From Saccoglossus kowalevskii (taxonomy: Eukaryota > Hemichordata > Enteropneusta > Harrimaniidae), in contig NW_003122910.1 in NCBI RefSeq assembly GCF_000003605.2, positions 193,717-236,393 on the forward strand: a stretch of DNA of 42,677 nt. The letters are read 5' to 3'. A program made the position numbers and the translations under genes. Numbering within the stretch: position 1 is the stretch's first letter; every line of letters starts with the position of its first letter. Below, piece after piece: positions 16,564-42,677 of the stretch. The notes under the pieces were generated by a model, which was not told where the DNA came from, searched no databases, and saw only the letters and a list, made by a program, of their open reading frames with translations.

Positions 16564-16659
16564 CTAACAGTAAATACAATGGCCCTCCTTGAGGTAATGC
16601 ATGTTATTTTGCTGTGGTGTTATGACTACTGATACATCGTATCTTCGGCCAGGTCGTAG
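16564..16659 (-). CDS. mosaic gene, terminal exon: short cytoplasmic tail
   Basis: After acceptor ATCGTTGCAG the frame reads [12 protein letters not shown] and continues to a TAG stop at 16566-16564 (31 residues). Basic residues directly after the membrane helix fit a stop-transfer signal. The acceptor has a weak pyrimidine tract. If the upstream intron were retained, the protein would instead end after nine more residues at TAA 16719-16717. Confidence 0.5.
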   Translation of the reverse strand, partial: LRPGRRYDVSVVITPQQNNMHYLKEGHCIYC

Positions 16660-19600
16660 CTGCAACGATGTTTGATATGCAAGTGTATGGATGGCTGTGT
16701 GTATAAAACACACATCTTAAACTTTGAAATTATTGAAACTCACCAAATACGTAACCACCATGATAATGACAAGAACGGCAACCACTGCAATGACGATTCC
16801 CACTATAATCAGAGCATCGTTGACTGTATCACGTTTTACAGGCTGTGGTTCCTGGTAAACCTTCTCAAATACGGCAGTGCTCCCATCTACTTCATAAATG
16901 ACTCCATTATAAACAAATGTGTAGGAAGATATCTAAAACAAACAAATCATATATTAACTATTTGAACGCAAATTCACGAAATAAACATACATAATGTTCA
17001 ATGATATTTGCATAAAATGAAATTCTCAAATCATATGGTGCAAAATTATTATAAAGAACAGTTATTGCAAATGTGAATGTACAGTGTCTACACAAGTTTA
17101 ACACACACCTTTTCTTCCATTTTATAAACAACGGCTTCAGTATCTTTATTGATTTCAGGATCAGCCACGATATTAAACTCGACTTTTATGCTCCCCTCAG
17201 AAATCTGAAAAATACAGAGTAATTGTTAACAACAGTGTTACATACAAATGAGTCTTGTTTATTAAACAGTCTGCAGATATTCGAATGTAAACGATCCCTA
17301 CCTTCATATTATCAATCATAGTGTCGGGAATTTGAAAATTCAGTGATATGCTCTTTGAAATTGACCTGTAATGCAAATAACAAACCATTATAAATGCATA
17401 TGTATCTTTTATTCACTATGTGTATACTTTTTTTATTTTATTACATAGTAATGTCATTTATTGTCTAGGTTCGTTTTGAAATTATGACTTGCATTGCAAT
17501 TGGAAAGTTTTTACAGGTGGATTGGCATTACTCACTCTTCAAAATCATCCACATCGTCCGCAATAACACCATAGTCTCCTTTCAGGTGGAAAGTGACGGA
17601 AACCGCTCTGTAATATAATGTACAATTATAAACAGAAACAAAATTACAAATCAGAATTATATGATTGTAGTTGCGTAGACTGGATATGTGTTCTAAATGA
17701 ACAATAATTGTAATTGTAAAAAAGGAGGAATACCACTATACTTACACCAATTCTTCGTCGTTTGCTGTGATATATGTGAAGGAAAATAAGAAATGAAATA
17801 TTATGTATACATGTATTTTCATAACAATCTTCTAACGTATTCAACAATGAACATCTTGTGAAGGTATTATCATCGAACATTTCCATTCAATAAATCATCA
17901 CGTTTCCCAGTTAATCGTAATTATCTTGTGAACAGACATTATATATAATTAATAATCATTACTCACGACATTCTCTATTGGAGCAAACCCATTCTTTTTG
18001 ATTGCAATAACTGAAATAAATATCAGTGAAACTGTATTCAATATGTGGATATGCGTCTCTAAACCAATATTTACCAGTATGTGCGTTTTATCGATATAGG
18101 ACTCATAGCAACGTGTACAACACGTGTAAAATACATTGTTTCTTTGTTTGTTTTAACACACTCGCTGTGCGACGACCACCGCCCTTTAACGCCTACAATA
18201 CAGTGGTATAAACGAATGAGTTGAAAGATGTGAAACGTAAATAATTTATCACATGAAATCTTACCATGTGTTGCATTCATTTGGTCTATATTCACCTTGT
18301 TTGTATGCCATATCTGAATAATAACATGATGTTGCGTCTCCTGAAATACAAAATCCATATATATAATTGTCTGGCCTTATACAGTCTCATTGACAGACGT
18401 TAACATTTACGTCAACTTAATATATAATTTATAAAGTTGAATCGCTGAAATTAACCAATTCATTAGTAGAAGATTTACTGAAAAATAATCGTCATATAAA
18501 TTAAAGGGCGCTGGTCGTCGAGCCGCGCATGCGCGAGTTATAAGAGTCTTACATAAACAAAGACAGCCTAAGACGTTACCAAGCTTTAATTAGGTATTTG
18601 TCAGGTGATTCGAAGGTATTGAAGGAGTCACTGACCGTATTTACTGCAAATCGCGCCAAGGTCAAACATCATACTTTCCATTAGAAGAGCGCACTGGATT
18701 GTTGGAAAATAAATGTTTATCAACAGAAATTTCGCACATGTGTAGCGCAACGACCACCGCCCTTTAAATATATGTGTTTCTTACCACAATAAATGTTCGT
18801 ACAGGACCATACACCATTGCTACAAGTACTGAAACAACAAATAACAATGATTGGATCAGTATAGAAACAATATCAATGATAGTATCGACATTCAGTGAGC
18901 ATAACCGTCAGTAAAGACACTGTGAGTTGATAAATAAATAAATAGTAGCATACAACATTATGGGAGAATTACCATGAATTACAGTCGCCGTCTTCCTCGG
19001 AACCTTCCAGTAATTCACCATGGGGATAGTCATGTCCATCCCTAAACGTACACGGTCGTTTCTCTGCAATAGAACACACGTGGGTACCAAATTGACATAC
19101 TTATCTAGTGTGAATATATTATTGAATCGAAGCACAAACATTGCTGATGTGTTGCTCCTCTTATTTTTTTCACATTGAGTGAGTTCGTAGAAATGATAAT
19201 GAAATTATTTTGATATTGGTTATGAGCTTACAATAAAGTAAAATATCATCAAAATAATCAGAATATCGTTAACATATCTGGCAGACCTGCTGAAACTGAA
19301 ATAGTAGTGTTGAGAGTAGTGAACATTATGTTACATTATATTACTTTTATGATAGAAGTGAACATTATGTTACATTATATTACTAATATGATAGAAGTGA
19401 ACATTATGTTGCGTTGTATTATATATTATGATAGAAGTGAACATTATGTTGCGTTGTATTATATATTATGATAGAAGTGAACATTATGTTACGTTATATT
19501 ATATATTATGATAGAAGTCAACATTATGTTACGTTATATTATATATTATGATAGAAGTCAACATTATGTTACGTTATATTATATATTATGATAGAAGTCA

Positions 19601-22600
19601 ACATTATGTTACGTTATATTATATATTATGATGGAAGTGAACATTATGTTACGTTATATTATATATTATGATAGAAGTGAACATTATGTTACGTTGTATT
19701 ATCTATTATGATAGAAGTGAACATTATGTTACGTTATATTATATATTATTATAGAAAGAAGTGAACATTATGTTACGTTATATTATATATTATGATAGAA
19801 GTGAACATTATGTTACGTTATATTATATATTATGATAGAAGTGAACATTATGTTACGTTATATTATATGTTATGATAGAAGTGAACATTATGTTACGTTA
19901 TATTATATATTATGATGGAAGTGAACATTATGTTACGTTATATTATATATTATGATAGAAGTGAACATTATGTTACGTTGTATTATATATTATGATAGAA
20001 GTGAACATTATGTTACGTTATATTGTCTGTTATTATAGAAGTGAACATTATGTTACGTTATATTATATGTTATGATAGAAGTGAGCATTATGTTACGTTA
20101 CGTTATATTATATATTATGATAGAAGTGAACATTATGTTACGTTATATTGTCTGTTATGATAGAAGTGAACATTATGTTACGTTATATTATATATTATGA
20201 TAGAAGTGAGCATTATGTTACGTTATATTATATGTTATGATAGAAGTGAGCATTATGTTACGTTATATTGTCTGTTATGATAGAAGTGAACATTATGTTA
20301 CGTTATATTATCTATTATGATAGAAGTGAACATTATGTTACGTTATATTATATAGTATGATAGAAGTGAACATTATGTTACGTTATATTATATATTATGA
20401 TAGAAGTGAACATTATGTTACGTTATATTATATATTATGATAGAAGTGAACATTATGTTACGTTATATTATCTATTATGATAGAAGTGAACATTATGTTA
20501 CGTTATATTATATATTATGATAGAAGTGAACATTATGTTACGTTATATTATATATTATGATAGAAGTGAGCATTATGTTACGTTATATTATATATTATGA
20601 TAGAAGTGAACATTATGTTATGTTATATTATATATTATGATAGAAGTGAACATTATGTTACGTTATATTATATATTGTGATAGAAGTGAACATTATGTTA
20701 CGTTATATTATATATTATGATAGAAGTGAGCATTATGTTACGTTATATTATTTATTATGGTAGAAGTGAACAGTTATTAACTTTTTTTTATATAGTAGGC
20801 TGTAGAGAAAAGATACGAATACGAAATGCCCAGGAAAATTTTTAAAAACTATTATAACCTACCATCACAGTCGATGTTCATTCCATTGGCATCATAGAAC
20901 TCTGCAAAACATCCACCACAGTAGTTATCGCGGCATATAGCATTGGGATCAAAAGCACACTGTGTAACATCACATGGTTTCGCCGTACACTGAACAAATT
21001 GCTGGTTGTCTGGGCAACCAGGACAGCACATAGAGGGGCCATCAGCAAACGTTTGGCAGTAATGTTCAATTGGACACTGATTGGTATCCGGACTGCACGC
21101 CATATTAGTTCCATCTTCGTTCATCGATGCTTCTCCTCTGGGACACACATTTTTTTCATCTAAATTGCAAACATATTCCATACGTTGAGATTAGAAAGGA
21201 TATTTCACTATTTGAATTTGTATGTACAAATGACAGTTGGACTGTAGACATTAAATATCTATCATGTGATAGTTTTGATCACAATAGTAAATCTATATTG
21301 GGTGTATAACACTTTTAGAAACTAGATACTTTCTGCTCTTCTTCATTACATAAGCGCCCCCTCATCCTACACAATGACATAAACTTACCATCACAATTGA
21401 CTTTCATTCCATATTCATCATAGAATTCTGCAAAACATCCACCACAGTAGTTGGCGTGGCATTCAGCATTGGGATTAGAAGCACACTGTGATACCCGACA
21501 TGGGTTTGTTGCACACTGTACTGTCTGCTGGCCGTCGGGACAACCTGGGCAACACACATCAAGGCCACCAGTAGACATCTTGCAGTGATGTCCGGGCGGA
21601 CACTGATCATGGTTTGGCATATTACCACAAAAAAGTACAGTTCCATCTTCGTCTTTTGCTGGTTTGCCGTCTGCACATGGATTGTCTAATCACAAAATAA
21701 ATTAGGTTTATAATTTATTATGTTCATGTTGAAGTGTTTCTAACCTAAGTCATCATGATGATTGTATGTATACTGATTCGACACTGAGAGCCTGTATGAA
21801 CTACACAATATGCCCGATTCGCATTGTATGTTATGCTAATAAAAGTACTATACTCACACTCCTCGCATAATCTTCCAAAGAATCCATCTGCGCAAACACA
21901 AACTCCGTGTGAGCAAAGACCACCATTATAACATACAATAGTGTCACTGCAGACAATGTCTGTGAATGAGAAGACAGTTATATTTAAATAATTACTTTGA
22001 ATTCCCATTGAATATAATTGAACAACAATTAGAATAACACTTTAAGATTATGTTATGGATCTGCATACAACGGAACACGTGTTGGTAGATAAGATATGTA
22101 CTAGTTGCCAGGCTGACTTCTGAAATGCTTAATATATTTAATCTTGTTTTGGACATTATTTGAACTCTGACAAATAGTTATTTCTAGTGTGTGTAATAGA
22201 ATTCAGAACACTTTATCACACACTCTTGGCTTTATGTCTTGGAGTCCATACATGTTTCAGTCTCTGACCATCTGACCATGCATTGTACTTTTCTCTATTG
22301 CGTTTATGATAAGCTAATTTGTTCGTCCACTGCGCTGTCAGTGCGTTTGACTTGATTTCACGGTTTATGAATTTAAAGTTCAATTAGGTAGGTAGAGTGT
22401 TATTTTATGTTAAGTTTTCTTTTTCCATGCATGTTATTTTTCACATCAGTATCTATGCATTCTGATAGTATTTTGTTGAATTAGTATGTGCATCATTGAC
22501 TTAAAGTTGGTGGATGTCGCAACTGCTGCTAAAAATGGAGATTAGGCGATACACAGCGGAACTTTTCCTTTCTATGTTTCCCTATGATTTATAAATTTAT

Positions 22601-25600
22601 TGAATAATATCTTAAATAGTTATTAATTAGAGAATTAGTATGCTACCTTATTTCCAATTGTTAACACAATTGCCAATAATGATATCAATCAAACATTGGT
22701 CGCATAATAAATTATAGTAAGATACAATTTAAACAACGGAAATACTCGTGTGATGCCATGTTACTCAAGCACACTACATTCAAAATGTCAAAGTCAAGTT
22801 AGTTGAATAGATCAAATCAATACATATATTCAAGGTTTAGTAAAATACCAATTTCGCTGACAAATCGCATACCTGGTACAGTACAACGTTTGTAGCAACG
22901 GTTCGAACAACATTTCTGAGTGCCGTAACAATCTCTGTCACCAACACATTGGTCGTCCTGTCCATTGCACGGTATATCATTAAGAACTATTGGACACAAT
23001 CCAGGCTTTGGATCGACTACCTCTATCAAGTAAAATTATATATGCGGTAATGAAGTACCTATACAATGAAGTTTGTATTTCAAGTACGTCATATGTGAAT
23101 ATCAAATGCAAACAAAAATATAATCCACTAGATAACTCACTACTGAAACCTACCATTACAATTGACTTTCATTCCATATTCATCATAGAACTCTGCAAAA
23201 CATCCACCACAGTAGTTGGCGTGACATTCAGCATTGGGGTGAGAAGCACACTGTGATACCTGACATGGGTTTGTTGTACACTGTGTAGGTAGTTGACCGT
23301 CGGGACAGCCCGGACAGCACACAGCATGGTTATCGGTAGACATTATGCAGTGATGTCCAACAGGGCAATGATGTTGGTTTGGCCCACATAATAGTTCAAC
23401 ACCATGCTCGTTCTTTAATGGTTCACCGCTAGGACAAGGGTTTACTTTGAAATAAGCAGAATGGATTATTTGTTGAAAATGATTCCATAGTTCACATACA
23501 CGTTTCTCATACAAGAATACACACTAACACATGACATGTGTGAACACAACCATTAAGACTCGTATGAGTGCACTGTAAAACATGGATAGTTACCGGGAGC
23601 TAGAATTGGATTTTGACATGTGTGACCACAACCATTAGAACAACACTTTTGTGCATCAGGACAGTTTTCGTCCAAAGTGCAAAGTTCAACACAAGTTCCA
23701 AATAATCCGTCAGTAGGGGGGCACTGTCCAGGTTTTGGTGGGTCTGAATGAGAAAACATACATAACAAACACAGATGTCACTATAGTGCAACTATGAAAT
23801 GGTATTACACGGTGCGTTTTAATATACACATTAACTAACACATTTGTATCTGAGAACACACGTATGAGTGCACTGTTCTAAAACAAGGATAGTTACCTGG
23901 AACTAGGATTGGATTTTGACATGTATGACCGCAACCATTAGAACAACACTTTTGTGCATCAGGACAGTTTTCGTCCAAAGTGCAAAGTTCAACACAAGTT
24001 CCAAATAATCCGTCAGTAGGGGGGCACTGTCCAGGTTTTGGTGGGTCTGAATGAGAAAACATACATAACAAACACAGGAGTACTATAGTGCAACTATGAA
24101 ATGGTATTACACGGTGCGTTTTAATATAATATACACATTAACTAACATTTGTGCGAACACACGTATGAGTGCACTGTTCTAAAACAAGGATAATTACCTG
24201 GAACTAGGATTGGATTTTGACATGTGTGACCACAACCATTAGAACAACACTTCTGTGCATCGGGACAGTTTTTGTTCAGTTGAGTACCCCCCGAGTATAT
24301 GAGTTTAACACACAAATTTGAATGTATATCAATGCGCGGGGAACGATTGTAATCCCTTTATTGCAACCGATGCATTAGCATGTATAACCAAGAGCGAGTA
24401 GTCAGCTTTTTCTGATATTGCCAATACTGGTGTAATTAATTAAATAATTTTATTATTGTAATTACTATTTGTTTTAAAAGAAGACAGACCACCTTTATTT
24501 GTTTTTTAAAATGCGGGAAATTAGCTTGTAGGCTCCATTTTGTAGCCCTACATTTCAAGTTTTTTTAAAACTGTTGCCTAGATGAAGGTAAACTGTAGCA
24601 TGTAACAAATCAAATGTAGCCATTGTAAATTACCTTCACAATTAACATTATCAAACACAATTTTATACCAGGCACAGTAATCAGCGTAACAACGTGCACA
24701 CGTGTGTTGTCGAGCACGTGCAGAGGAAGACAAGCACCTTCAAGGCATTACCAATGTATTGCCAAATTTAATGTACCACATATAATTTGTCTACATTCAG
24801 TAACGAACATTCGTAATAGTTACGTAAGTAGTAGATGAAAATACTGATATAATGCAGAACATACCAGTACAATCCACTTTGTTTCCATACTCATCAATAT
24901 ATTCCGCGATACATCCCGAGACATGGCAGTAATTAGGAACACATGTAGCAGTTGGATAAGTTGGACAGGAAGCTAAGAGGCATGGATTCAGTTTGCATTC
25001 AAAAGCCAGTGGTCCATATGGACACATCATATCTGCAAAATAGAGGCGATTGCCAATTAAGTAATATATTTAAATTATGTTATAATAATACTAAGTATAT
25101 AAACGATGTTTTTTATATGTGGGCCTGTCAATCCATGCCATTGATCGCCACACTAACAGGGATTATTGTCTACAATAATTCATCTTTAAACATAACCAGA
25201 CGAGACACTGATGCCTGGCAATTTGTTGAATCTTTGGGTACATCATTGTCGTTATGTATGTGTGTCGTTATTAACACTTGGGCATGATCAGATATTATAT
25301 AATGTTTAATGTGACCCAGACAATCTATAATTTCGTTCAGTTGTATTATTTGTCCATAAACCCAGTATAAACAATAATGATTCAATTACTTACCAAGACA
25401 GTCCACAATGTTGTCCTGTTCGTCAAAGAATTCTGGGAAGCATTCGTTGTATATTCCATGTTGACATATGTTAACTTCACATCGTGCATTAGGGTGCGCT
25501 GGGCACAGTGTTGTGTCACAATGATTACTCACACATGGAAGAGGTTCTACGCCATCATCACAACCTATGTGTAAGAATTAAGTTAGAAAGGAGAAATAAC

Positions 25601-28600: not shown

Positions 28601-31600
28601 GCAGTATTGTCCACTGAATCCATATGCACAATTACAGTGAAACATGCCTCCCTGTGTCAGTGTGCACGTGGCACCGTTGTGACACGCGCCAGTATAATCA
28701 CAGCTTCCACCTGAATAAATGACGTGAAATCACGTGGAAAATTAATCAATAGCAGAAAGTATTACTGAATCATTATGCGGTGCTGAATATGTCGTGGTAA
28801 ATATAAAAATATTTAGATGTGTTTAGACATATGTATTTATATATTCATATATAACTATATTAATTATTCACGCAACATGAAAAATATTCAACAATATTTA
28901 TATTACATAGAATATTGTTTTGTACTCAAACTATTTGATAATGAATTAGAATAATATGTGGCGGGTGGCACAGATGTGGCAGGATGTGCTTTTTCTTTTT
29001 AGAACACTCAATATCTACTTGTCAGTTGTTTTATTTTGCTCTTATTGATTATTTTGCCGATTATTGCCAGTCGTTCATTGTGTGTTGCGAGTTTTTAGAT
29101 CCACGGTTTGGTATGTTATTTCTAATAGTCGTGTGGAATTGCTTTAGTGCAAGGTATAAATACACATTATTCGTTGAATGTGATTATTCAACTTGTGAAG
29201 GAATACAATAGAATATATAGGAACGCTATCGTGCTTACCAAGTAGAGTTTCGCAATTAAATCCAGTATAACCATCAGTGCACTGGCACATATATTGTGTA
29301 TTAGCGTGTAGGCACGTACCGTCGTGCTGGCATGGTTCGGAATCACATGGATTAGTACCTGGGTCAAGTGAATACAATGTGAATTTAAGGTGATGGCACC
29401 GGTGTAACAGATAGTGCCAACATTCATGTTAGTTAGTAGAAACATAGTGTGCACATAACAAAAATAAACTTGTGTTTTCTAATATGTATTCTACGTAGTG
29501 TACGCGAAATTGAATATTCAGATCTACTCACTGCAAGGATTTGTTGTACATGACCAACCGCCATTAAGACATTCGCTGAAAGGATACAAATACCATAGAC
29601 AAGTCAATACTTGATATTACGTCATGGCCCAAATACTCCATCAACCGTGACCCGGAACTGATTTGATAGTATACATTATAACAAGTGCATGTGTTGATTC
29701 TTACCAGACATTACAGTCTTCTTGTCTTGTTGCAAATTCGTTGTATCGTGTACTTCCATAGTAACATTCTAAAAATACGAAATGCACAATAACGCTAGTA
29801 AAACATATGTTAATTTGGGTTGAACTCATGACTGATATCTACTTAGCGGGAATACAATAATATATACACAAATCTCAAAAGTAAATGTTGTGCGGCACCG
29901 TAACAATACCGACGTGATTTGTGGTTCTCTCTTACCTCTACCATTGCTCCCTTCACAGTTAGTGCCCGTATACCCAGACGCACATAAACATACATAAGCC
30001 GACAAGCCGTTACCAGCCTGGAAGCATGTGCCGCCATTGAGACACGGCATACTGTCACACGGGTCTTGAACTGTCAAGTATTAAGAAAATAAATATGGTG
30101 TAAGCACTATAAGTGTATACGTAATGACACAGTCAGTTGTGTGATTCCTCCCTTTAACTGTGTGTACAATATATTCGTTTCTTTATTATTTAGTAATAAT
30201 ATCAAAATAATATTTTAAAAATTAAGCGAACCAGGGTCTTATTTAAAACAGATTGATTTCAGAATACAAACTGGAGTTAGTTGCAGCCATTTAGAAAGAG
30301 GTGTTAAAAACCTGGGGTTACTCTATAGACTGTTAGACATGTCAATAGTCTCATCTTTCTTCATAAAACAACGAATGACACCAACAGGAGTTGCATACAG
30401 AGTAACTTGTTTGAGTTGATCACACTCCACCTTTGTGCAAAAAAACGGCAGAGAATGCTCACAATAGGGGGTAGGATGTTCTCAATGTCTGAAATAGGGG
30501 GTGTTTTTCTCTTCAATATGTCTGCTCTATGGGGTACTAAATTTATAGTGCGTCCGCAATAGGGGGTATGGTTTGCCAATGTGCTGCCAGCCCTAGGGGC
30601 CTATTATTGTTTTTTTTAGCAAGGACGCACATGGTATAAGGTTTTAATATAGGGTGACCCCCGGGGTCAAAAACATGACATAAATCTTCATATAAATATG
30701 CCTGACATGATGTCTGATGCAAATGTGTGATTTCGGTACATTTTTAGTCTTAAAATGACTTCCAGTCGGGCACAAACGCACATATATATGTCCGATGAAA
30801 TGCTTGATGTAAGCGTGAAGTTTGAACTTGATTGGGGAGGAAGGTGTGTCTGAGATACAAAGGGGTAAGAACGGGTGCACTGAGGTCGTGGAAATGTTTG
30901 GATGTCATGAATATGTGACTATTTGATTAAAAGCGTGCATCACCTATTTCACAAACATCTCCATAATATCCAGATAGACATGTACATGTCATGACGTTAT
31001 TGACCATTGAGCAAGTCCCACCGTTTATACACGGGTTGTATGCACACTGCGTTGGTCCTACGATCAACAAGAAATATTACACATTGTTATAACAACGATT
31101 TAATCAAAATTGCATATATATATACGTGCTTCTAATGAAGCAGAATGAGTGATGGTCACAAATGAAACACCAGAATAATCATCGAATCCCTAATTGTAGT
31201 ATAAAAACAGCAATAATCGATAACCAACGTGATTTATCGGTATTTATCTTTTCATGGCGTTGGTCAAGTGTAAATAAAGACCATTGTTTATAATAAAAAC
31301 ATAAAAGAACAAATTATTGAAGTTTAATATTTAGACCACTTTATTTGAAAGTGTTATTGTTGATGGTTGACGAGAGGGGACGTTCTGACGATAAGAAAAT
31401 ATATCTTACCCGACAATGTATTCACTTACCTGTGCCGATATTACAAAGTTGACCATAATACCCAGTGGCACAGAGGCATACGTAGCCGGGTGATGTACTA
31501 GTTATCGTGCATGTACCGCCATTATGGCAGGGGTTGGGGTAGCACGAATCGCCTACAAATTACGATAAAAAAAACATGACTGTTACTATTTATTTTTACC

Positions 31601-34600
31601 CACACGCATCATGGCTGCGAAACCTGAATGCGAATGGTAATACAACTGTTTAAATGTGTACCATTTGTAAATAGTTGAACATTCGAGGCAGCGTCCCTAT
31701 TACTTTGAGTGTCACTGTACTATCAGGGGTAAATCTTCTTCCACGGGGTCTCCACACTTGTCAGGGGGGAAACTCGTCTCGTCTCTCTATCTCGTCCCCT
31801 TGAGGTACGGGATCGGGAATGTCACTTATACTTTACAGTCAAATAAGACACACACAACGAAATACATTTCAGCTCTCGTCTTAGTCGATCTTTTGGAGCA
31901 CTCTATAAGACACGGCGCCCTGGGGAAAAATCCCCAAGACTCTCCCAAGGCTGACCCAAGACTAGCCCAAGACTGGACCGCCTCAAGGCTCGCCCCTGGA
32001 CTCTCTCCGACCCTCCAGGACTGCACTCTCTCTCTACTGCGTCTATCGTGCTGTGCTCGTCAAGACCAACTCAAACTCTCTTTATTCATTTTCACAACTC
32101 CAACCAATTACAAAGCAGTAAAAGACTCTAGGGCGTAACCTTCAATCATAAAGCCAATCACACTAAGTACTGAATACGTCATATCTTTTGATTAAACGTT
32201 CACTACATTAATAACTACGGATGTCAGAATAGCGACGGTATCTTGTAATTAGTTCCAAATCACTGAGCCAAGTTCCGTCCAAAACTTCAAATAGGCCTAC
32301 ACGATGACAGACATAACACAGCAATTCGCTAATAATCAGTTAATTAAGTCGGTCAACAGATACGCGAAAACAAATTCATGACAGTACATTTAAAGCAGTG
32401 GCGGATCTAGGGGNNNNNNNNNNNNNNNNNNNNNNNNNNNNNNNNNNNNNNNNNNNNNNNNNNNNNNNNNNNNNNNNNNNNNNNNNNNNNNNNNNNNNNN
32501 NNNNNNNNNNNNNNNNNNNNNNNNNNNNNNNNNNNNNNNNNNNNNNNNNNNNNNNNNNNCCCCCCCCAATAAAATCAGGTGTGTGTCAATCACCGAGTAA
32601 GTGTGACTTTTTTACTCACCTACAGACACTGAATTCAAACAAGTGACAACGCAACCATTGAAACAACATTTTTGATTATTTGAACAAAACTGGTCAGAGA
32701 AACAAGCGGTTAATGTGCAGTCCCCCGAAATTCCGGGATATATCGGAGGGCATAATCCTGTGTGCAGTAAAATAAACATTACAAACCGTGTGGTTAGTAT
32801 AGATTACGTGCAATGATACGATTATTATAGACTTCGTGGAATTGCGTCACCATAAAAGAATATAAACAAACGATTGAGTAAGATGATAGGTTGATTTGCC
32901 AAATACAAGATATTGACCAACATAATTTTACACATTTAATCATGGGAAACATATCACTATTTGTTGATGGTCTTCACAATGATTTTAAAGAATGATCTTA
33001 TGATATGCCCTCATGCGGAATACATATTCTTTATTTACTTATGCTTTTCCGTACTTATATAAAACGTCCGCTAACGAAAGCACTATTGAATATGTCGTTA
33101 GAGGGCACTAACACTATGTCTGTGAATTCAAAATTACGTTGTATGTATTGCTTATACGCACGTGGCCCCACTGATGCATAAATTATTAATAAACTATCAT
33201 TTAAATGTTAATACAGGTTAGTTAGAAAGTTGATCAGCGATTATTGATTTTTGTATATTTATTCAGACTTACCACAAGATAATTGAGTGCAGTTCCATTG
33301 GCCGTTTAGACATGTACTAAAAATAAACACAATAACAACTTTTAACTACGCATTATCAGGTCAAAGTTCATTTTGTTAATTACATATTACATTAATATCA
33401 GCGTGTATGATAACGACATCACACATGAGAGTATATCTTACCAAGTATTGCAGTCTTGCTGCCTCGTAGCACTGTGTGAATACGTAACAAAGCTGTGAGT
33501 GCAGGGAGCTGGGTATAAAATAAAACATTACTCGAGTTACATTAATATTCATTGGTTAGTCTCGTGAAAAAGGTTGTCACTTATGCTAAACAGTGTTTCA
33601 AATATAAAATTTATTGAAATGTAAGGTGGGATTGATATGAAAGAAACTCCGAAGACATTTTTTTTTTACTTACCACACGGCAATTCACTGCAGCCCCACT
33701 GACCATTAAGACATGTACTGAAAATAATGATACAAAGTGTGTGATAAACTTATTAGAAAACAAATCGATTTCATAACATGTGAGTATATATCTATGATCT
33801 TACCAAAAGTTTCCGCAGTCTAGCTGTCTCTCAGCTCCGTCTGAATAAGCTACGCCGTCATGGGTGCAGCCGCCTAAGTATCAAATGAAATTGCAAGAAA
33901 ACACGTTATTGTTATGCAGACATTTCTGGATACCGGGTATATTCAAATGCGGGGGAGTCGTCACCTGCACCTGCGTATGCGGCAAACGACCATAGCTTGT
34001 CGTTGTTTACAAACAAACATCTACCCATGGGCCTTTGCGTTTTTAATGTTCTTTGTTATCGTCGCTTGGAATTCAATTACCGCGCATGCGCAGGTGACGA
34101 CCACCTCTGCTTCAAGTAAATTAAATAATTATGAATGTTAAAGTATAACATTTGAATACAAATTGCCTAACCTGAGTGACAGGAAATCTCTGTACACGAC
34201 CATGACCCGTAATTACATGTGCTATAATAAACAAATGAACATCTTTACGTACAAATTGAACATTACACTTATAAAGGTACACACATCTCATGTTTAATAC
34301 CAAATTTAGGATAAATAAAAACCGAGAATAATCAGATACAGTACGAAGTGTGCACTTTTGTTTATTGTCCTTTCGTAACGTTTAATTTCCTTACGCGCCG
34401 TTTTATTTGAATTTAATCTTTTTCGCGAGAAGGTAGACAATATCACGTGGCCAAAGACCCAACGCCCTCTACGGTGTAAAACACACACTTACCACTTGTT
34501 ACAGTCTTCTTGTCGTGTTTCGAAGTGTTGGTAAACTTGGCCGTCGTAAAAGCAATTCACATTTCCAGCTAAAAAATTTAAATAAAACAATAATGGTCTA

Positions 34601-37600
34601 GAGCCGCTGAAACTCGTATACAAATCTCACTATCTGATTCCGAGGTAATAACATTCAATGTGTCCAATACATCTGTCACTTGTATTGTGATCTTCACGTG
34701 TTGGATGGATATACATCAATCACGTGACAATGGTACTTACTGGGAGTGTCACATAGAGTGCCTGTAAATCCTGTTGTACAATAGCACGTATATGTATTAT
34801 AATATCCAAAGCAGGTAGCTCCATTTTGACACGGATTGTTGGAGTAACATATGCCTGCCACTGAATATAAAAAAAATACTATGTTATAACAAAATATTAA
34901 TCACCGTGGCCAGCCGCTTACGAAGCACTTAATTTTGTCCAAAAAAACGTGTTATATTTAAGGCAGAGGAGATTTTAGCATAATAATGGTACAATGGTAG
35001 ATGTCGACTAGAACGTTCAGGTCAACTCAATATAATGAAACGTATGATATCGGTATTAACTGGTGGTTTGAAAGATAATGATACTTTATGTAAATTAAAT
35101 AATAAGCGTGTGACATGACATTAAATTGACTCGAGTAAAAGACACATTCTTAAAACGGAGAAATAATTTAGGCGGAAGGATTAATCGTGTACAAGTAAAA
35201 TAATATATAATTAATTGCTTTGTTCTGGTATGTGTATTCGATGAAGTGTAATGTATGTGGGTTTGGTTCACCTTCGATGGACGTTCCACATCTGTCACCA
35301 ACAAATCCTTCCGTGCAATGGCAAGTGTAGCTGCCATCAACGTTGTCTTCACAGGAACCGCCATTAAAACATGGATTGGTACTACACTGTGAAACTGAAA
35401 TGTAATCGATGTGTAAGCACACTCAAATATATCAAAAAAAGGAACATTCTGGAAAACAAATCACTTTCTATTGTAACGGACTCAGGGTGAACTCTCCTTA
35501 ATCACGAATGTAACATGCGGCTTTGCATTGTGTCATTTTTAAGTACCACGAGTAGTCTTAAATTTTGACATATGTCAGTACTTCATCTTTTCTGCGTGGA
35601 TAATTGGAATACGTGTGCACACATCACGAAATGATTCATATAGCAGCCCCACCCCATTCCGACATTGTCATGTGACAACGTTCTGAATTGTACTTATTGG
35701 GTACATGTGTATAGGTTACGTGACTCGTAAACAATATATTTTTGATATAGATTATAAATGTTTTAAAAAATAGCATTCTCTCACGAAACATTTAAATTGT
35801 TCACCAGGGTTGTCATGGTGAATTACGTCATAAGTAGATAAAAGCATATTGATTGTATATGTTATCACTACTCACAAATCAAAGAATATTCATTACAATG
35901 TGGAGTGCTAATGTACGCTCTCTATGTCAGTTTTCATGCAGGAGTTGTTTCCGAATTGTGACTTACACTTTGCCAATAAAACCTTTCAAAACGCCAAACG
36001 GATAAAAAAAATAGATCAACTGATTATCAGCCTCGACCTAAATGAGTTTTTATGAATTTCGAATCACCAAGTCAACCACCGTTATAAAAAATAGAAATAA
36101 TTGTGCCCTCTTTTGTAGAGGTTACATTTGGACATGATATGATATTTATATCCGCCATTAATATAGTGCTTATGTTGACAGCATTGGTTTATGGGTAGAA
36201 TGTTGCAATATATAACTCCCAGATGAAAGAGCTTCATAAATACAGGAGAATGCAATTTACATTTTGTTATTTCACAATTAATCAGTATACAAGTATGTGA
36301 TTCGCTATCTTGATTCTCCAGCAAAGGATTTGGGGTTATGTTGTGAAAAATTGAGAAAATGATATAGATGACTACAACTTCAAAATTAGGACTTCGAAGT
36401 TTAGACCATGCCGTACTATAATATGGTTGTCATACCAACATAACTGGAAATATTCATCGTTTCATTTTTAGATCTTTCTACCAAATCTCACTCAATTTAT
36501 CGATTAGAGTGGCTTATACAGGATATGTATAACCACAAACGGGAACAAAACAGTCATTCTAATCTAAACGACTACATTTTTACTTATTTTACCTTTCTGA
36601 AAATGTCTCGTGCCTTTGCAACATTATTTTACCACTATTTGAGTTACTAGTATATACATGAGTAAAATAAAAATGTGACCTAATTAATTTTACTAAGTTA
36701 TGAATGGAATCAATTTCTTCATTTTTTGAAACAACGATTGGAAAGTTAAAAAAAGAGGACAACGTATATTAATTAAAAAGTTGAATATGTGTAGAACGAA
36801 AAAAAAAATATAAAGAGAGAAGCTATAAATTGCATACCGTGTATTCGTGCAGCTCTTTTATTTGGAAGTAACATATATGTATCCATATATGCATTAGCTA
36901 TGGTAGTTTTAGTATATAATGGGACATAACAATACGCTTTTCTTTCAAAATTAAAACTGCATTCAAAAAATATTTCATTAAACTCACAAATCTAGAGTGT
37001 ACCAGCTGAAATATCAGTAGCTAATTTGTACAAGCTACTTATCCATTTTAACAAATATCATGAGAGTATTATTCTTTCAAATTTCAAGTTTTCTTTTAAT
37101 GATATTCAAATATGAGAGTTTATGAGGTTTACACTGGTACACTCTGTGTATAATTGGCCTATCAATGTAGGTCATCATGTTGTGCATATCCAGTTATAAT
37201 TGATTACGTACGTAATTGAGTTTGTCATCCCTCGAGGTTTTAAGATAACAAATCACGCGTTAACTAAGCCAGTGATGGAAGATTCGTGTACTCTCTGTAT
37301 CGGAACGTGATTGCTGAATATGCGGGGCCGAGGATTTATCATTTATTACTGAGGGGCTGAGTGTGGGTGATGATCGACAGATTATACACAATTTTGTTTT
37401 GTTTCATACAATATTTGTTGCTTTCATACAATATTGTTGATACATATATTTTTGATAACTAATTTCCTGAAGAATTGTATCTATGTGCAAGTTTTTTTTT
37501 AATTCACCCCCTTCTCCACATAGTTCAAATGGTCAACCCCAAAACAATAAACTTACTAACCTCCTGTCTGTGCCCACAATGACATCACCAGTGACGTCAT

Positions 37601-37622
37601 TATCAGTAACGTCCACATCATA
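16564..37622 (-). CDS. large mosaic type I membrane protein (EGF, WAP, VWC-like, lustrin-type, NYCGGC, SEA, TM), 41 exons
   Basis: Not a gene I recognise. Joining 41 exons by canonical splice sites gives one closed frame of 1,584 residues. Approximate order: signal peptide 1-22; EGF 23-101 (two); VWC-like 101-218 (three); WAP 218-264; EGF 264-388 (three); VWC-like 388-424; EGF 424-506 (two); WAP 506-557; EGF 557-638 (two); NYCGGC 638-691; EGF 691-730; NYCGGC 730-843 (two); WAP 843-943 (two); lustrin+NYCGGC 943-1040; WAP 1040-1090; EGF 1090-1124; lustrin+NYCGGC 1124-1322 (two); VWC-like 1322-1407 (two); SEA-like 1413-1510; TM 1530-1553; tail 1554-1584. The modules point to an extracellular adhesion, protease-inhibitor or mucin-like surface role; the function is not known. 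Ends are weakest: exon 1 to exon 2 relies on a second acceptor, and the tail exon on one plausible acceptor. It is not Notch (no LNR, no ankyrin domain). Confidence 0.85.
16744..16932 (-). CDS. mosaic gene, transmembrane exon
   Basis: A 189-nt phase 0-0 exon between TGTTTTAG and GTGAGT. About 39 residues end the SEA-proximal stalk ([17 protein letters not shown], then VKRDTVND). A 24-residue helix of only A, L, I, V, G, M, T and Y follows, starting [12 protein letters not shown]. This is the single membrane span of a type I protein. Confidence 0.88.
17109..17607 (-). CDS. mosaic gene, SEA-like domain (three exons)
   Basis: Exons 17536-17607, 17302-17365 and 17109-17204 (phases 2-2, 2-0, 0-0). 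The first gives a beta-strand-like [12 protein letters not shown] followed by ADDVDDFEE. The second gives [12 protein letters not shown]. The third gives [17 protein letters not shown]. The order F-E-E, alternating hydrophobics, then G-S-I-K-V-E-F immediately before a membrane helix is typical of SEA domains. G-S-[hydrophobic]-x-V is where mucin-type SEA domains autocleave. The domain is assigned by pattern, not by profile search. Confidence 0.7.
17746..17764 (-). CDS. mosaic gene, 19-nt microexon
   Basis: CAAACGACGAAGAATTGGT sits between acceptor ATATCACAG and donor GTAAGT. It adds P-N-D-E-E-L-V and converts the phase-1 end of the last VWC-like exon (17967) to the phase-2 start of the SEA exon (17607). 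Without it the frame does not join. Confidence 0.72.
17967..18340 (-). CDS. mosaic gene, VWC-like module 6 (exons 18265-18340 and 17967-18010)
   Basis: First exon: [19 protein letters not shown], ending in TG of a split Cys codon. Second exon (44 nt): completes Cys, then [14 protein letters not shown]. Six Cys follow the pattern C...C-x2-C-x-C-x6-C-x4-C. The RQ.DC box of the other copies is here RPNEC. Splice sites are TTTCAG/GTAAGA and TTTCAG/GTGAGT. Confidence 0.82.
18169..18190. mobile_element. solo terminal repeat of the AGGGCGGTGGTCG MITE family
   Basis: GCGACGACCACCGCCCTTTAA matches the right end of the element at 18505-18763, but no left end is apparent. It is a fragment in an intron of the mosaic gene. 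Confidence 0.6.
18505..18763. mobile_element. 259-bp MITE with terminal inverted repeats and TTAA flanks
   Basis: The left end AGGGCGCTGGTCGTCG and right end CGACCACCGCCCT are inverted repeats. TTAA flanks both sides (18501-18504 and 18764-18767), as expected of a TTAA-targeting element. Because the flank is itself palindromic the exact TSD is ambiguous. A GCGCATGCGC palindrome lies just inside the left end. It has no coding capacity. It sits in the intron between VWC-like modules 5 and 6. Confidence 0.8.
18785..19063 (-). CDS. mosaic gene, VWC-like module 5 (exons 18973-19063 and 18785-18828)
   Basis: First exon: [20 protein letters not shown], then EEDGDCNS and a split Cys codon (TG). Second exon (44 nt): [15 protein letters not shown]. 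Acceptors are TTGCAG and TTTCAG; donors are GTAATT and GTAAGA. The first exon is 15-27 nt longer than those of the other copies. The longest open frame over this exon is a different frame without cysteines; phase and cysteine pattern decide for the frame used here. Confidence 0.8.
19318..20772. repeat. 40-bp minisatellite, about 36 copies
   Basis: A strict 40-bp unit containing GATAGAAGTGAACATTATGT followed by TACGTTATATTATATATTAT. The first copies at the low-coordinate edge carry TACATTATATTACTT and look older. One unit is 44 bp (near 19750) and another about 45 bp (near 20095). It lies in the intron between VWC-like module 5 and the last lustrin exon. Low divergence suggests recent homogenisation. 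Confidence 0.95.
20863..21159 (-). CDS. mosaic gene, lustrin-type + NYCGGC exon 3
   Basis: A 297-nt phase 1-1 exon between GCAATTTAG and GTAGGT. The N-terminal half has [24 protein letters not shown] and MCCPGCP, which fits the lustrin-type cysteine repeat (C..G, C, CP..xxC, CC). The C-terminal half has the NYCGGC module: [36 protein letters not shown] and IDCDG. It is the most diverged of the three fused exons. Confidence 0.85.
21389..21685 (-). CDS. mosaic gene, lustrin-type + NYCGGC exon 2
   Basis: A 297-nt phase 1-1 exon between GTGATTAG and GTAAGT. Lustrin half: [45 protein letters not shown] half: [43 protein letters not shown]. The second half is almost identical to that of the exon at 23154-23444, while the first half differs much more. 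Confidence 0.88.
21858..21959 (-). CDS. mosaic gene, EGF module 11
   Basis: A 102-nt phase 1-1 exon between TTCACAG and GTGAGT. Six Cys: [25 protein letters not shown]. It is the shortest EGF of the set because the C3-C4 loop is only SHGV. It lacks the O-fucose residue (L instead of S/T before C3). Confidence 0.88.
21960..22872. other. intron, nothing recognised
   Basis: About 0.9 kb of AT-rich sequence between the EGF 11 and WAP 5 exons. I see no repeat array, transposon end or extra exon with a cysteine pattern on either strand. Confidence 0.5.
22873..23022 (-). CDS. mosaic gene, WAP module 5
   Basis: A 150-nt phase 1-1 exon between CTTGATAG and [14 protein letters not shown], then [18 protein letters not shown] and KRC give the eight cysteines of a four-disulfide WAP core, including the K-C-C motif. 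WAP domains often inhibit serine proteases; activity here is not shown. Confidence 0.87.
23154..23444 (-). CDS. mosaic gene, lustrin-type + NYCGGC exon 1
   Basis: A 291-nt phase 1-1 exon between TTTCAAAG and GTAGGT. Lustrin half: [47 protein letters not shown] half: [41 protein letters not shown]. The two domains are fused with no intron, sharing the CCPGCPDG hinge. Confidence 0.88.
23594..23743 (-). CDS. mosaic gene, WAP module 4
   Basis: A 150-nt phase 1-1 exon. [43 protein letters not shown] give eight cysteines, including K-C-C-S-N-G-C. It is nearly identical, including flanking intron, to the exon 303 bp away at 23897-24046; the only residue change I see is A to V near the end (NPILAPG). 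Confidence 0.9.
23897..24046 (-). CDS. mosaic gene, WAP module 3
   Basis: A 150-nt phase 1-1 exon between TCATTCAG and GTAACT. It is an almost exact copy of WAP module 4 (ends NPILVPG). Because each copy is phase 1-1 and has intact splice sites, both can be included in the mRNA without shifting the frame. Confidence 0.9.
24198..24280 (-). pseudogene. truncated third WAP exon copy
   Basis: The 3' half of the WAP exon ([25 protein letters not shown]) with its donor, 301 bp from module 3. Similarity stops near 24280: the first half with its cysteines and the acceptor are gone, replaced by unrelated sequence. No AG with a pyrimidine tract is placed to splice it in. Confidence 0.8.
24634..24736 (-). 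pseudogene. eroded NYCGGC exon relic
   Basis: Reading CYADYC, then [11 protein letters not shown] before a good donor (GTAATT), this resembles the end of an NYCGGC exon. The first cysteines are lost, and an in-frame TGA lies at 24742-24740 with no phase-1 acceptor. It is probably a dead duplicate lying between the truncated WAP copy and NYCGGC module 3. Confidence 0.5.
24865..25032 (-). CDS. mosaic gene, NYCGGC module 3 (variant NYCHVSGC)
   Basis: A 168-nt phase 1-1 exon between TTTTGCAG and [36 protein letters not shown], then HVSGC instead of [19 protein letters not shown]. The module stands alone, without the lustrin half. The C-to-C loop is three residues longer on one side than in the canonical copies. 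Confidence 0.83.
25394..25564 (-). CDS. mosaic gene, NYCGGC module 2 (variant [11 protein letters not shown])
   Basis: A 171-nt phase 1-1 exon between CACATAG and [33 protein letters not shown], then [11 protein letters not shown] in place of [19 protein letters not shown]. All cysteines are kept but the loop has grown by five residues. Confidence 0.83.
25831..25947 (-). CDS. mosaic gene, EGF module 10
   Basis: A 117-nt phase 1-1 exon between TTTTTGTAG and [33 protein letters not shown] give six cysteines. The O-fucose position is V, so no fucose is expected. Confidence 0.88.
26167..26325 (-). CDS. mosaic gene, NYCGGC module 1
   Basis: A 159-nt phase 1-1 exon between TTATTTAG and [56 protein letters not shown]. 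It defines the minimal stand-alone module: C-x-D-G, C-x3-[DN]-P-C-x3-S-C, C-x2-N-Y-C-G-G-C, then a hydrophobic stretch and a final C. Confidence 0.85.
26633..26755 (-). CDS. mosaic gene, EGF module 9
   Basis: A 123-nt phase 1-1 exon between TTATGTAG and [33 protein letters not shown]. It is a standard six-Cys EGF, with M at the O-fucose position and an atypical PPTW in place of the usual xxGY/F. Confidence 0.88.
26822..27650. repeat. 28-bp minisatellite, about 29 copies
   Basis: The unit is 28 bp: AAGAATCCCATATACGATTG followed by TTACAATC. The commonest variation is CGATTG against CCATTG. It begins about 65 bp from the EGF 9 exon, inside the intron toward EGF 8. All three + frames stay open for long stretches because the unit lacks stops, giving frames up to 281 codons that I consider non-genic. 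Confidence 0.95.
28013..28132 (-). CDS. mosaic gene, EGF module 8
   Basis: A 120-nt phase 1-1 exon between TATTTCAG and [36 protein letters not shown]. It has an O-fucose consensus (T before C3) and an EOGT-type site (C5-xxG-x-T-G-xx-C6). Confidence 0.9.
28284..28436 (-). CDS. mosaic gene, WAP module 2
   Basis: A 153-nt phase 1-1 exon between GGTTTCAG and [39 protein letters not shown] give eight cysteines with the K-C-C motif. Confidence 0.87.
28585..28710 (-). CDS. mosaic gene, EGF module 7
   Basis: A 126-nt phase 1-1 exon between TATTCAG and [34 protein letters not shown]. It carries O-fucose and EOGT-type sites. Confidence 0.9.
28711..29238. other. intron, possible unidentified repeat
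   Basis: About 0.5 kb. A segment near 28966-28990 (GGCGGGTGGC, GTGGCAGGATGTG) is more GC-rich than its surroundings and may be a transposon remnant; no inverted partner was found. Confidence 0.3.
29239..29358 (-). CDS. mosaic gene, EGF module 6
   Basis: A 120-nt phase 1-1 exon between TGACCCAG and [33 protein letters not shown]. It matches three O-glycan consensus sites: O-glucose (C-D-S-E-P-C), O-fucose (T before C3) and EOGT-type (G-Y-T-G). Confidence 0.9.
29532..29768 (-). CDS. mosaic gene, VWC-like module 4 (exons 29705-29768 and 29532-29575)
   Basis: First exon: [20 protein letters not shown] and split Cys codon. Second exon (44 nt): [15 protein letters not shown]. Acceptors are TTTTTAG and CTTTCAG; donors are GTAAGA and GTGAGT. 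It has the R-Q-E-D-C box and W between the fourth and fifth Cys. Confidence 0.85.
29936..30070 (-). CDS. mosaic gene, EGF module 5
   Basis: A 135-nt phase 1-1 exon between ACTTGACAG and [33 protein letters not shown], with an extra NGRG tail. It matches O-glucose (C-D-S-M-P-C), O-fucose and EOGT-type sites. Confidence 0.9.
30360..30900. repeat. unclassified repeat-like block in intron
   Basis: It has several TAGGGGGT boxes (30465-30475, 30494-30502, 30552-30569) and, after 30650, two loosely similar segments of about 100 bp around CATATAAATATGCCTGAC and CATATATATGTCCGATG. The sequence is richer in G-runs than the neighbouring introns. It is probably a decayed mobile element; class unknown. 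Confidence 0.4.
30944..31057 (-). CDS. mosaic gene, EGF module 4
   Basis: A 114-nt phase 1-1 exon between GATCGTAG and [33 protein letters not shown]. An O-fucose consensus is present. The donor GTGATG is the weakest of the EGF exons. Confidence 0.88.
31430..31552 (-). CDS. mosaic gene, EGF module 3
   Basis: A 123-nt phase 1-1 exon between ATTTGTAG and [32 protein letters not shown], six cysteines, O-fucose consensus present. Confidence 0.9.
31690..32140. other. GC-richer block in intron, possible retroelement remnant
   Basis: This is clearly less AT-rich than the surrounding intron, with CT-rich stretches (CTCGTCTCTCTATCTCGTCC, CTCTCTCTCTACTGCG) and imperfect repeats of CCCAAGACT. A + strand frame of 126 codons covers it, but its Pro/Leu/Ser-rich product has no recognisable domain. 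An old LTR is possible; I saw no flanking duplication. Confidence 0.35.
32396..32413. mobile_element. possible hAT-type transposon end beside an assembly gap
   Basis: CAGTGGCGGATCTAGGGG resembles terminal inverted repeats of hAT elements of the CAGTGGCGGATC type, common in invertebrates. The inverted partner is not visible; the sequence runs straight into Ns. Confidence 0.5.
32414..32559. other. assembly gap (146 Ns)
   Basis: A run of N flanked by GGGG on the left and CCCCCCCC on the right, inside the intron between EGF 3 and WAP 1. Phases of these two exons agree, so no exon need be missing. Confidence 0.98.
32620..32757 (-). CDS. mosaic gene, WAP module 1
   Basis: A 138-nt phase 1-1 exon between GCACACAG and [44 protein letters not shown] give eight cysteines of the WAP core. 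Confidence 0.88.
32758..33272. other. intron, nothing recognised
   Basis: About 0.5 kb of AT-rich intron between VWC-like module 3 and WAP 1. No cysteine-patterned exon or repeat is seen. Confidence 0.5.
33273..33508 (-). CDS. mosaic gene, VWC-like module 3 (exons 33442-33508 and 33273-33316)
   Basis: First exon: [21 protein letters not shown] and a split Cys codon. Second exon (44 nt): [15 protein letters not shown]. Splice sites are ATACCCAG/GTAAGA and TTTTTAG/GTAAGT. Confidence 0.85.
33674..33873 (-). CDS. mosaic gene, VWC-like module 2 (exons 33804-33873 and 33674-33717)
   Basis: First exon: [23 protein letters not shown] and a split Cys codon. Second exon (44 nt): [15 protein letters not shown]. 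The second exon closely matches that of module 3 (C-T-C-L-N-G-Q-W), so these two are probably the youngest pair. Confidence 0.86.
33951..34106. mobile_element. MITE-like element with inverted repeats
   Basis: Left arm GTCGTCACCTGC..TGCGTATGCGG and right arm GCGCATGCGCAGGTGACGAC are inverted repeats. GTGGTCGTC and GCGCATGCGC also occur at the end of the element at 18505-18763, so the two are related. It lies in the intron between VWC-like modules 1 and 2. Exact ends are uncertain. Confidence 0.65.
34172..34568 (-). CDS. mosaic gene, VWC-like module 1 (exons 34493-34568 and 34172-34221)
   Basis: First exon: [21 protein letters not shown] and a split Cys codon. Second exon (50 nt): [17 protein letters not shown]. 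It shows the full pattern C...Y...RQEDC-x2-C-x-C-x2-G-x-W-x-C-x4-C. The second exon is six nt longer at its end than the 44-nt exons of the other copies. Confidence 0.86.
34741..34860 (-). CDS. mosaic gene, EGF module 2
   Basis: A 120-nt phase 1-1 exon between TATATTCAG and [35 protein letters not shown]-fucose and EOGT-type sites are present. Confidence 0.9.
35272..35386 (-). CDS. mosaic gene, EGF module 1
   Basis: [26 protein letters not shown], six cysteines, O-fucose consensus (S before C3). Two acceptors eight nt apart are possible: ATTTCAG (exon from 35394, phase 1) or TTTCACAG (exon from 35386, phase 0). Only the second joins in frame to the strong donor of the signal-peptide exon. 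If the first is used, another exon must lie between 35395 and 37556. Confidence 0.85.
35395..37556. other. first intron of the mosaic gene, nothing recognised
   Basis: About 2.2 kb, strongly AT-rich, with many short A and T runs. I found no cysteine-patterned exon, transposon end or array. A small extra exon cannot be excluded. Confidence 0.45.
37557..37622 (-). CDS. mosaic gene, exon 1: signal peptide
   Basis: Reads [18 protein letters not shown] then TGGL up to donor GTAAGT (66 nt, phase 0). It has a hydrophobic core of about 15 residues and a polar end with A-Q-T-G, as in a secretory signal. A second ATG directly follows the first. It is the only good signal sequence upstream of the first EGF on this strand. 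A weaker donor (GTTAGT, phase 2) overlaps. Confidence 0.75.
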
Positions 37623-41969: not shown

Positions 41970-42677
41970 TACTTGAAAACCTCACCCTACTCGAAACTAA
42001 CGATATTTCTCTATTGAAAACTTTTCCTACCCAGGATTAATGATACTTAACCATTGAAAACCTCAAACTACCCGAGGTTAATGATAGTTTCCCTATTGAA
42101 AGCCTCACCCTACCCCGGGTTAATGATACTTCACCATTGAAAACTTCACCCACCCAGGGTTAATGATACTTCACCATATAAAACCTCACCCTACCCGGGG
42201 TTAATGATACTTCACCATAGAAAACCTCACCCTACCCGGGGTCAATGATACTTCACCATTGAAAACCTCACCCTACCCGGGGTTAATGATACTTCACCAT
42301 TGAAAACCTCACCCTACCCAGGGTTAATGATAGTTTCCCTATTGAAAACCTCACCCTACCCGGGGTTAATGATACTTCACTATTAAAAACTTCATCCTAC
42401 CCAGGGTTATGATACTTCACCATTGAAAACTTCATCATACCCGAGGTTAATGATACTTCACCATTGAAAACCTCACCCTACCCGGGGTTAATGATACTTC
42501 ACTATTAAAAACTTCATCCTACCCAGGGTTATGATACTTCACCATTGAAAACCTCATCCTCCCCAAGGTTAATGATACTTCACCATTGAAAACCTCACCC
42601 TACCCGGGGTTAATGATACTTCACTATTAAAAACTTCATCCTACCCAGGGTTATGATACTTCACCATTAAAAACCTT
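41970..42677. repeat. 41-bp minisatellite, about 17 copies, continues past the window
   Basis: The unit holds GAAAACCTCACCCTACCCGG then GGTTAATGATACTTCACCATT. A variant trio (with TTAAAAACTTCATCC and a one-base-shorter GGGTTATGATAC) recurs near 42380, 42502 and 42624, giving a 122-bp higher-order period (41+41+40). Confidence 0.94.

Follow-up and report, generated by a model that had tools for sequence, protein, structure and literature searches.

A 41-exon gene model in an acorn worm for a mosaic surface protein of 31 cysteine-rich modules

Animals commonly have mosaic surface proteins that arose through the shuffling of phase 1-1 exons. The full VWC module has ten cysteines; pacifastin units have a C1-C2 spacing of ~9–12 and a basic or hydrophobic residue at P1, and lustrin A carries long low-cysteine spacers. 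The SEA fold is ferredoxin-like. SEA domains hold their fold despite low sequence conservation, and SEA-like domains act as proteolytic switches, both in Notch and when built into chimeras with other receptors, as an excerpt of PMC6586460 describes. The motif at which MUC1 undergoes G/S autoproteolysis is GSVVV (PMC4456727, excerpt), and WAP proteins are present in the shell matrix of molluscs (PMC3374290, excerpt).

Here we describe a locus of Saccoglossus kowalevskii, contained in a 42,677-nucleotide stretch of DNA (the window), for which a 41-exon membrane protein with an unfamiliar module order had been predicted. The mitochondrial contig of the assembly likewise indicates a Saccoglossus-type acorn worm: cox1 is inverted, nad5 adjoins cob, nad2 precedes nad1, and the tRNA-Lys carries anticodon TTT (cox1 was identified with Pfam, the remaining genes by inspection). 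In this contig ATA encodes Ile, AAA corresponds to Lys at an aligned COX1 site, and the single AGA of cob falls at a conserved Ser. An excerpt of PMC3121625 lists for S. kowalevskii an inverted COX1, a transposed ND1 or ND2, the anticodon UUU and the assignments AUA Ile, AAA Lys and AGA Ser, and PMC2697986 (excerpt) describes nd5-cob adjacency in hemichordates. A lancelet source, suggested by gene order with the mitochondrial code taken as table 5, was rejected on two grounds: Asymmetron has moved cox3/nad3 (PMC2034537 and PMC5430900, excerpts), and ATA stands for Ile, the best PDB match of COX1 (7o37_a) having I at five of nine aligned ATA sites, V at two and L and M at one each, as counted by eye. 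All modules but one kind belong to or resemble known families; the protein is an ordinary animal mosaic in what appears to be a new combination. The claim of unfamiliarity holds in that an incomplete survey of the literature yielded no description of this combination of modules; it is tempered by contig C4661, where a second locus of this genome has a comparable C-terminal half. The architecture is thus not unique, part of the arrangement being repeated within the genome.

Gene model on the minus strand

The window looks to carry one long gene for a cell-surface protein, running from 37621 to 16564 on the minus strand (Table 1). The spliced model has 41 exons and 40 introns and encodes, in one uninterrupted frame, 1,583 residues followed by a stop codon. 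This reproduces the predicted 41-exon, single-frame model to within one base: the interval given originally (16564..37622) and the frame were right, but the stop had been counted among the 1,584 residues, the start codon lies at 37621, and the strand, left unstated there, is minus. The plus strand was rejected as the coding strand; its long frames are mainly minisatellite, and the cysteine-rich module frames lie on the minus strand.

Exons were located by a dynamic-programming finder that chains AG...GT exons and takes its codon scores from clear-cut modules of the same gene. The finder returned 35 exons, 33 internal ones of which were retained, and eight were placed by eye: exon 1 (signal peptide), exon 35 (the last VWC-like half) and exons 36–41 (juxtamembrane, transmembrane and tail). 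The acceptor of exon 2 was set at TTTCAG, giving phase 1, 8 bases from its initial placement, and the single frame depends on this choice. All 40 introns of the final 41-exon model are GT...AG, an agreement that carries no weight as independent evidence because exons were picked for GT/AG ends. The chain score was 498.6 on the real strand, compared with at most 0.44 in seven controls (0.44 for the plus strand, −0.52 for the reversed sequence and −0.24 to −2.60 for five order-2 Markov sequences). With training restricted to the opposite half of the gene, 19 of the 22 exons in the 5′ half were recovered, 17 with exact ends (exons 1, 4 and 5 were missed and two false outermost exons added), as were 11 of the 19 exons in the 3′ half, nine with exact ends (exons 23 and 35–40 were missed and exon 41 received a wrong end). 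The membrane end is therefore a reading by eye combined with likeness to C4661, where exons 38–40 were matched by tblastn. If exon 40 were read on instead of spliced, the frame would close 8 codons later.

Because almost every module is phase 1-1, a skipped, unseen or wrongly joined module would leave the frame intact. Four introns span 1.0–2.2 kb, and intron 10 holds a 146-base run of N. The weakest exon of the model is exon 1, with the start codon and signal peptide: it is the sole signal-peptide candidate in the 7.3 kb upstream, but the same scan gave one candidate in a 7.3-kb control and none in 16 kb. Tandem arrays, a dispersed repeat and a plus-strand ankyrin-repeat frame also occur in the window and are included in Table 1.

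Table 1 Features of the window, in window coordinates.
Feature	Position	Strand	Basis or remark
Exon 1: start codon and signal peptide	37561..37621	-	by eye
Exons 2–3: EGF x2	34741..35394	-	chain model and Pfam
Exons 4–9: VWC-like/pacifastin-like half-modules x3, two exons each	33273..34568	-	model and Pfam
Intron 9: signal-like start exon with phase-1 donor	32851..32935	-	alternative start or chance match
Exon 10: WAP 1	32620..32757	-	Pfam, 38.2 bits scanned alone
Exons 11–13: EGF x3	29936..31552	-	model and Pfam
Exons 14–15: VWC-like module 4	29532..29768	-	model and Pfam
Exons 16–17: EGF x2	28585..29358	-	model and Pfam
Exon 18: WAP 2	28284..28436	-	model and Pfam
Exons 19–20: EGF x2, minisatellite in intron 19	26633..28132	-	model and Pfam
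Minisatellite in intron 19	26814..27650		28 bp x 30
Exon 21: NYCGGC module	26167..26325	-	model and unit alignment
Exon 22: EGF	25831..25947	-	model and Pfam
Exons 23–24: divergent NYCGGC-type x2	24865..25564	-	model and unit alignment
Third, truncated WAP-exon copy	24145..24357	-	91% identical to exon 25 over 157 bases
Exons 25–26: WAP 3 and 4, near-identical tandem duplicates	23594..24046	-	model and dN/dS
Exon 27: lustrin-type and NYCGGC in a single exon	23154..23444	-	model
Exon 28: WAP 5	22873..23022	-	Pfam, 41.1 bits scanned alone
Exon 29: short EGF	21858..21959	-	model and Pfam
Exons 30–31: two more lustrin-type and NYCGGC exons	20863..21685	-	model
Minisatellite in intron 31	19311..20777		40 bp x 36
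Exons 32–35: VWC-like x2	17967..19063	-	model and Pfam; exon 35 by eye
Dispersed repeat, two copies 80–85% identical	11988..12208 and 18553..18767		the latter in intron 33
Exons 36–40: juxtamembrane SEA-like block (EGSIKVEF) and transmembrane segment	16744..17764	-	by eye
Exon 41: basic stop-transfer, short cytoplasmic tail, stop codon	16564..16659	-	by eye
Ankyrin-repeat frame, perhaps part of a neighbouring gene	5489..5770	+	29.5 bits against an Ank cut-off of 21.1
Array flanking the gene	82..2701		25 bp x 104
Array flanking the gene	41973..42676		41 bp x 17

Module identities, cysteines and duplicated exons

From the N-terminus, the signal peptide is followed by two EGF, three VWC-like, one WAP, three EGF, one VWC-like and two EGF units; then by one WAP, two EGF, one NYCGGC, one EGF, two NYCGGC-type and two WAP units and a lustrin-type unit joined to NYCGGC; and finally by one WAP, one EGF, two further lustrin-NYCGGC pairs, two VWC-like units, the SEA-like block, the transmembrane segment and the tail. 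The predicted counts (11 EGF, 6 VWC-like, 5 WAP, 6 NYCGGC and 3 lustrin-type) were right and amount to 31 modules of five kinds. Every one of the 208 ectodomain cysteines lies inside a module, with none in the SEA-like block, and each module class keeps its own constant number: 11 x 6 in EGF, 5 x 8 in WAP, 6 x 6 in VWC-like, 3 x 8 in NYCGGC units standing alone and 3 x 14 in the lustrin-NYCGGC exons.

Profile searches with Pfam confirmed the EGF units (PF00008; 93.4 bits against a cut-off of 21.5, 11 stretches, six cysteines in 11 of 11) and the WAP units (PF00095; 108.4 bits against 20.8, five stretches, eight cysteines in all five). The residue following Cys2 of the five WAP units is V, V, A, T and N. 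The VWC-like units matched VWF-like PF23244, a 28-residue model, with 56 bits over six stretches, and Pacifastin_I PF05375 with 37.6 bits (cut-off 27.9), again over six stretches. VWC PF00093 itself scored 25.8 bits with the whole protein, below its cut-off of 27.6, 28.5 with the C-terminal pair and 25.2 with the first unit. We term these units half-VWC/pacifastin-like because each has six cysteines, with a C1-C2 spacing of 16 in five units and 22 in one. At the P1 place, following Cys5-T/S, they have E, E, Q, T, N and N, residues not typical of pacifastin there. In the domain-profile check proposed with the original prediction, EGF and WAP scored above their cut-offs, SEA and the lustrin-type units had no match, and VWC fell below its cut-off with the whole protein and above it with the C-terminal pair; the suggestion of protease-inhibitor units stands for WAP as a domain family, but for the VWC-like units it depends on the Pacifastin_I score, with a spacing unlike that of pacifastin.

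Each NYCGGC unit contains eight cysteines, in the pattern C...C...C...C...A-x-C-x-x-N-x-C...C...C, and ten columns are invariant across the six copies. All six predicted units are present, but the literal motif occurs in four of them. Scanned against Pfam at E ≤ 10, the three single units and two lustrin-NYCGGC exons gave only a 6.8-bit zinc-finger match. A profile of the unit found nothing of note in the PDB (one chance antibody match, E = 0.74), and an NCBIfam scan gave no match close to any cut-off. Across the 572-Mb assembly of 4,830 contigs the unit is found at 25 places: this gene accounts for six, and the remaining 19 are spread over nine further contigs. This is a domain of eight cysteines, frequent in the genome, that escapes the Pfam copy used. 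Matches elsewhere include contigs C1210, C3296, C1942, C3465 and C1344 (L034, L036, L037, L039, L040 and L041); at L036, L037, L039 and L041, WAP matches fall inside the same 10 kb.

Lustrin_cystein (PF14625) had no match at E ≤ 10 in the whole protein or in exon 27 or exon 31 alone. An exon on C4661 that shares 51% identity with exon 30 scored 36.2 bits with this family (cut-off 27) and was its sole match among the 16 candidates scored genome-wide. The lustrin-type label predicted for these units is thus upheld by the homologous exon but not by the window copies. An AlphaFold model of exon 30, built on a 3-row alignment, had a pLDDT of 55 and a pTM of 0.41 and was set aside.

Four of the eight pairs of duplicated exons could be dated and show constraint, with dN/dS values from 0.07 to 0.36 (exons 25/26, 0.07; 27/30, 0.25; 27/31, 0.32; 30/31, 0.36); three of the others are saturated, and the pair 7/9 rests on 8 synonymous sites. 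The lowest value is thinly based, since WAP exons 25 and 26 differ by four synonymous changes and one non-synonymous change (dS 0.13, dN 0.009). Upstream of both lies the third WAP-exon copy, its first half missing, which is, on its alignment to exon 25, a broken module relic. The gene may have originated by phase 1-1 exon shuffling followed by tandem exon duplication. It would then be a clean case of such shuffling in an invertebrate deuterostome, with the birth of modules visible, as in the recent WAP exon pair next to its truncated third copy.

The juxtamembrane block and related loci

The SEA-like block starts at residue ~1411 and is followed by a strongly hydrophobic segment with 19-residue means of up to 3.66, the transmembrane segment lying within residues 1523–1557. 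Exon 41 encodes 31 residues of the tail region, in which no Pfam family rose above its cut-off. The SEA profile PF01390 gave no match to the window protein at E ≤ 10 and none to the C4661 block at E ≤ 1; a genome-wide search with it returned 0 matches, but its controls were likewise silent, which makes that search uninformative. The block itself was found at two loci only in the genome (E ≤ 1, 8 candidates scored). The window and C4661 blocks are 44% identical, and both keep GSI[KR]VEF. Three internal introns of the block agree in place and phase at the two loci, as judged by eye. The motif, GSIKVEF in the window and GSIRVEF at C4661, may correspond to the MUC1 cleavage G-S: hhalign of the two-block pair against the MUC1 SEA domain put the G-S in register with an E-value of 0.015 in one comparison, at a probability of 3%. 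Plain pairwise alignment with MUC1 was not significant for the window block (p ~0.1) or the C4661 block (p ~0.22).

In PDB searches the best match was yeast SMT3, with an E-value of 0.024 for the block alone and 0.047 for a two-sequence profile; SEA proteins were absent from the best 60 of 84 matches to the block and the best 60 of 70 to the profile. The SMT3 likeness covers about half of the block and was taken as chance, though it outranks any SEA protein. The juxtamembrane block is likely a SEA domain. The predicted SEA end is favoured by the G-S alignment with MUC1 and by the second locus, but has no profile match; the original proposal of a mosaic protein that carries these modules and crosses the membrane once is well supported.

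The C4661 locus resembles the window in having, in the same order, EGF units, lustrin-NYCGGC, VWC-like, NYCGGC, VWC-like halves, the juxtamembrane block and a transmembrane segment. Its chain model comprises 10 EGF exons, a fused lustrin-NYCGGC exon, a VWC-like pair and NYCGGC; the further VWC-like second halves, the KGSIRVEF block and the transmembrane segment were read by eye and partly by tblastn. The EGF units and the SEA-like/transmembrane block fall inside ~10 kb on the same strand. Unlike the window, the locus gave no WAP match in tblastn, although WAP may still exist further 5′, since the sequence there reads N. A third locus, C3574, shares with the window four NYCGGC and nine WAP matches on one strand (tblastn), and is possibly an inhibitor array; in the two stretches examined there, one of them mostly N, neither EGF nor the SEA-like block was matched at E = 1e-3. 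We tentatively propose, at somewhat less than even probability, a hemichordate family with at least two loci, whose members would be sheddable surface proteins, anchored by SEA and bearing multiple inhibitors, with the eight-cysteine NYCGGC domain as their core.

Proposed function and comparison with known systems

The best-supported reading is a type I single-pass surface protein whose ectodomain strings together disulfide-locked modules. By analogy with WAP and SEA biology, from which shedding and inhibition are inferred, there is about an even chance that it serves as a sheddable protective rod or coat on epithelial surfaces, bearing inhibitor-type units. The ~31 disulfide-locked modules would form a stiff, protease-resistant extracellular rod, with EGF and VWC-like units supplying length and ligand contacts. 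The SEA-type block would break at the G/S of EGSIKVEF to leave two subunits held non-covalently, so that shear or damage could release the rod from the membrane, and the WAP units would have an inhibitory or antimicrobial role at a mucous epithelium.

The main rival, which we consider unlikely but worth weighing, is a signalling receptor or adhesion molecule whose EGF runs bind a partner and whose juxtamembrane block works as a Notch-like proteolytic switch that frees the tail. The 11 EGF units and the cysteine-free block beside the membrane would suit such a protein; the SEA-like switch in Notch offers a precedent (PMC6586460, excerpt), and any type I receptor or adhesion protein could just as well have such a transmembrane end. 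Against this, the tail is short, with 31 residues in exon 41, and has no Pfam family above cut-off. WAP and lustrin-type units are also, to our knowledge, unusual in signalling receptors of this kind. A lustrin-like protein of the extracellular matrix or associated with mineral, membrane-anchored by happenstance, has very little probability: it can draw on the 36.2-bit Lustrin_cystein score of the homologous C4661 exon and on the precedent of mollusc shell-matrix WAP proteins (PMC3374290, excerpt), yet the protein has a hydrophobic segment near its end. The long low-cysteine spacers typical of lustrin A are also missing, and acorn worms, as far as we know, build no shell.

A different objection concerns the gene rather than its product. 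The exons might belong to two or more genes, a secreted EGF/VWC/WAP protein being encoded upstream, a membrane protein downstream, and the two falsely linked through phase 1-1 modules, the symmetry of which makes real and false junctions alike in frame. Four introns are long, one with its run of N, and the signal-like start exon in intron 9 would allow a gene to begin at exon 10. When read into their own introns, exons 1–40 each reach a stop within 60 codons, which makes an early gene end compatible with the sequence. The scan that produced the intron 9 candidate had one other intragenic match, which is part of EGF exon 20, and one intronic candidate in ~19 kb is no more than its background (1 in 7.3 kb and 0 in 16 kb). 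At C4661 EGF units and a SEA-like/transmembrane block likewise lie close together on one strand, although that locus could itself be two genes. Taken together, we regard a split as quite improbable and retain the single-pass surface protein as the preferred reading.

Among known systems, the protein resembles the WAP arrays of mollusc shells (perlwapin and the Lottia WAP/antistasin proteins) in having several WAP units, and in the Lottia proteins WAP stands beside other inhibitor-type units (PMC3374290, excerpt). The mollusc arrays are shell-matrix proteins, whereas the window protein adds EGF, VWC-like and NYCGGC units and a transmembrane segment. Its likeness to lustrin is indirect: the homologous C4661 exon exceeds the curated cut-off of PF14625 and the window copies do not. 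With MUC1-type surface mucins it shares a single transmembrane segment and, in the hhalign comparison, a juxtamembrane G-S that falls where MUC1 is cleaved. Those mucins have a long, O-glycosylated Ser/Thr-rich region, which is missing here, the ectodomain being cysteine-rich instead. Serine and threonine make up 12.9% of residues 21–1405 and proline 7.0%, and the ectodomain has a single N-X-S/T site, a composition that does not support the mucin-like option of the original prediction. If the block is a cleavable SEA domain, the protein could be the acorn worms' cysteine-rich, inhibitor-bearing counterpart of cell-surface mucins.
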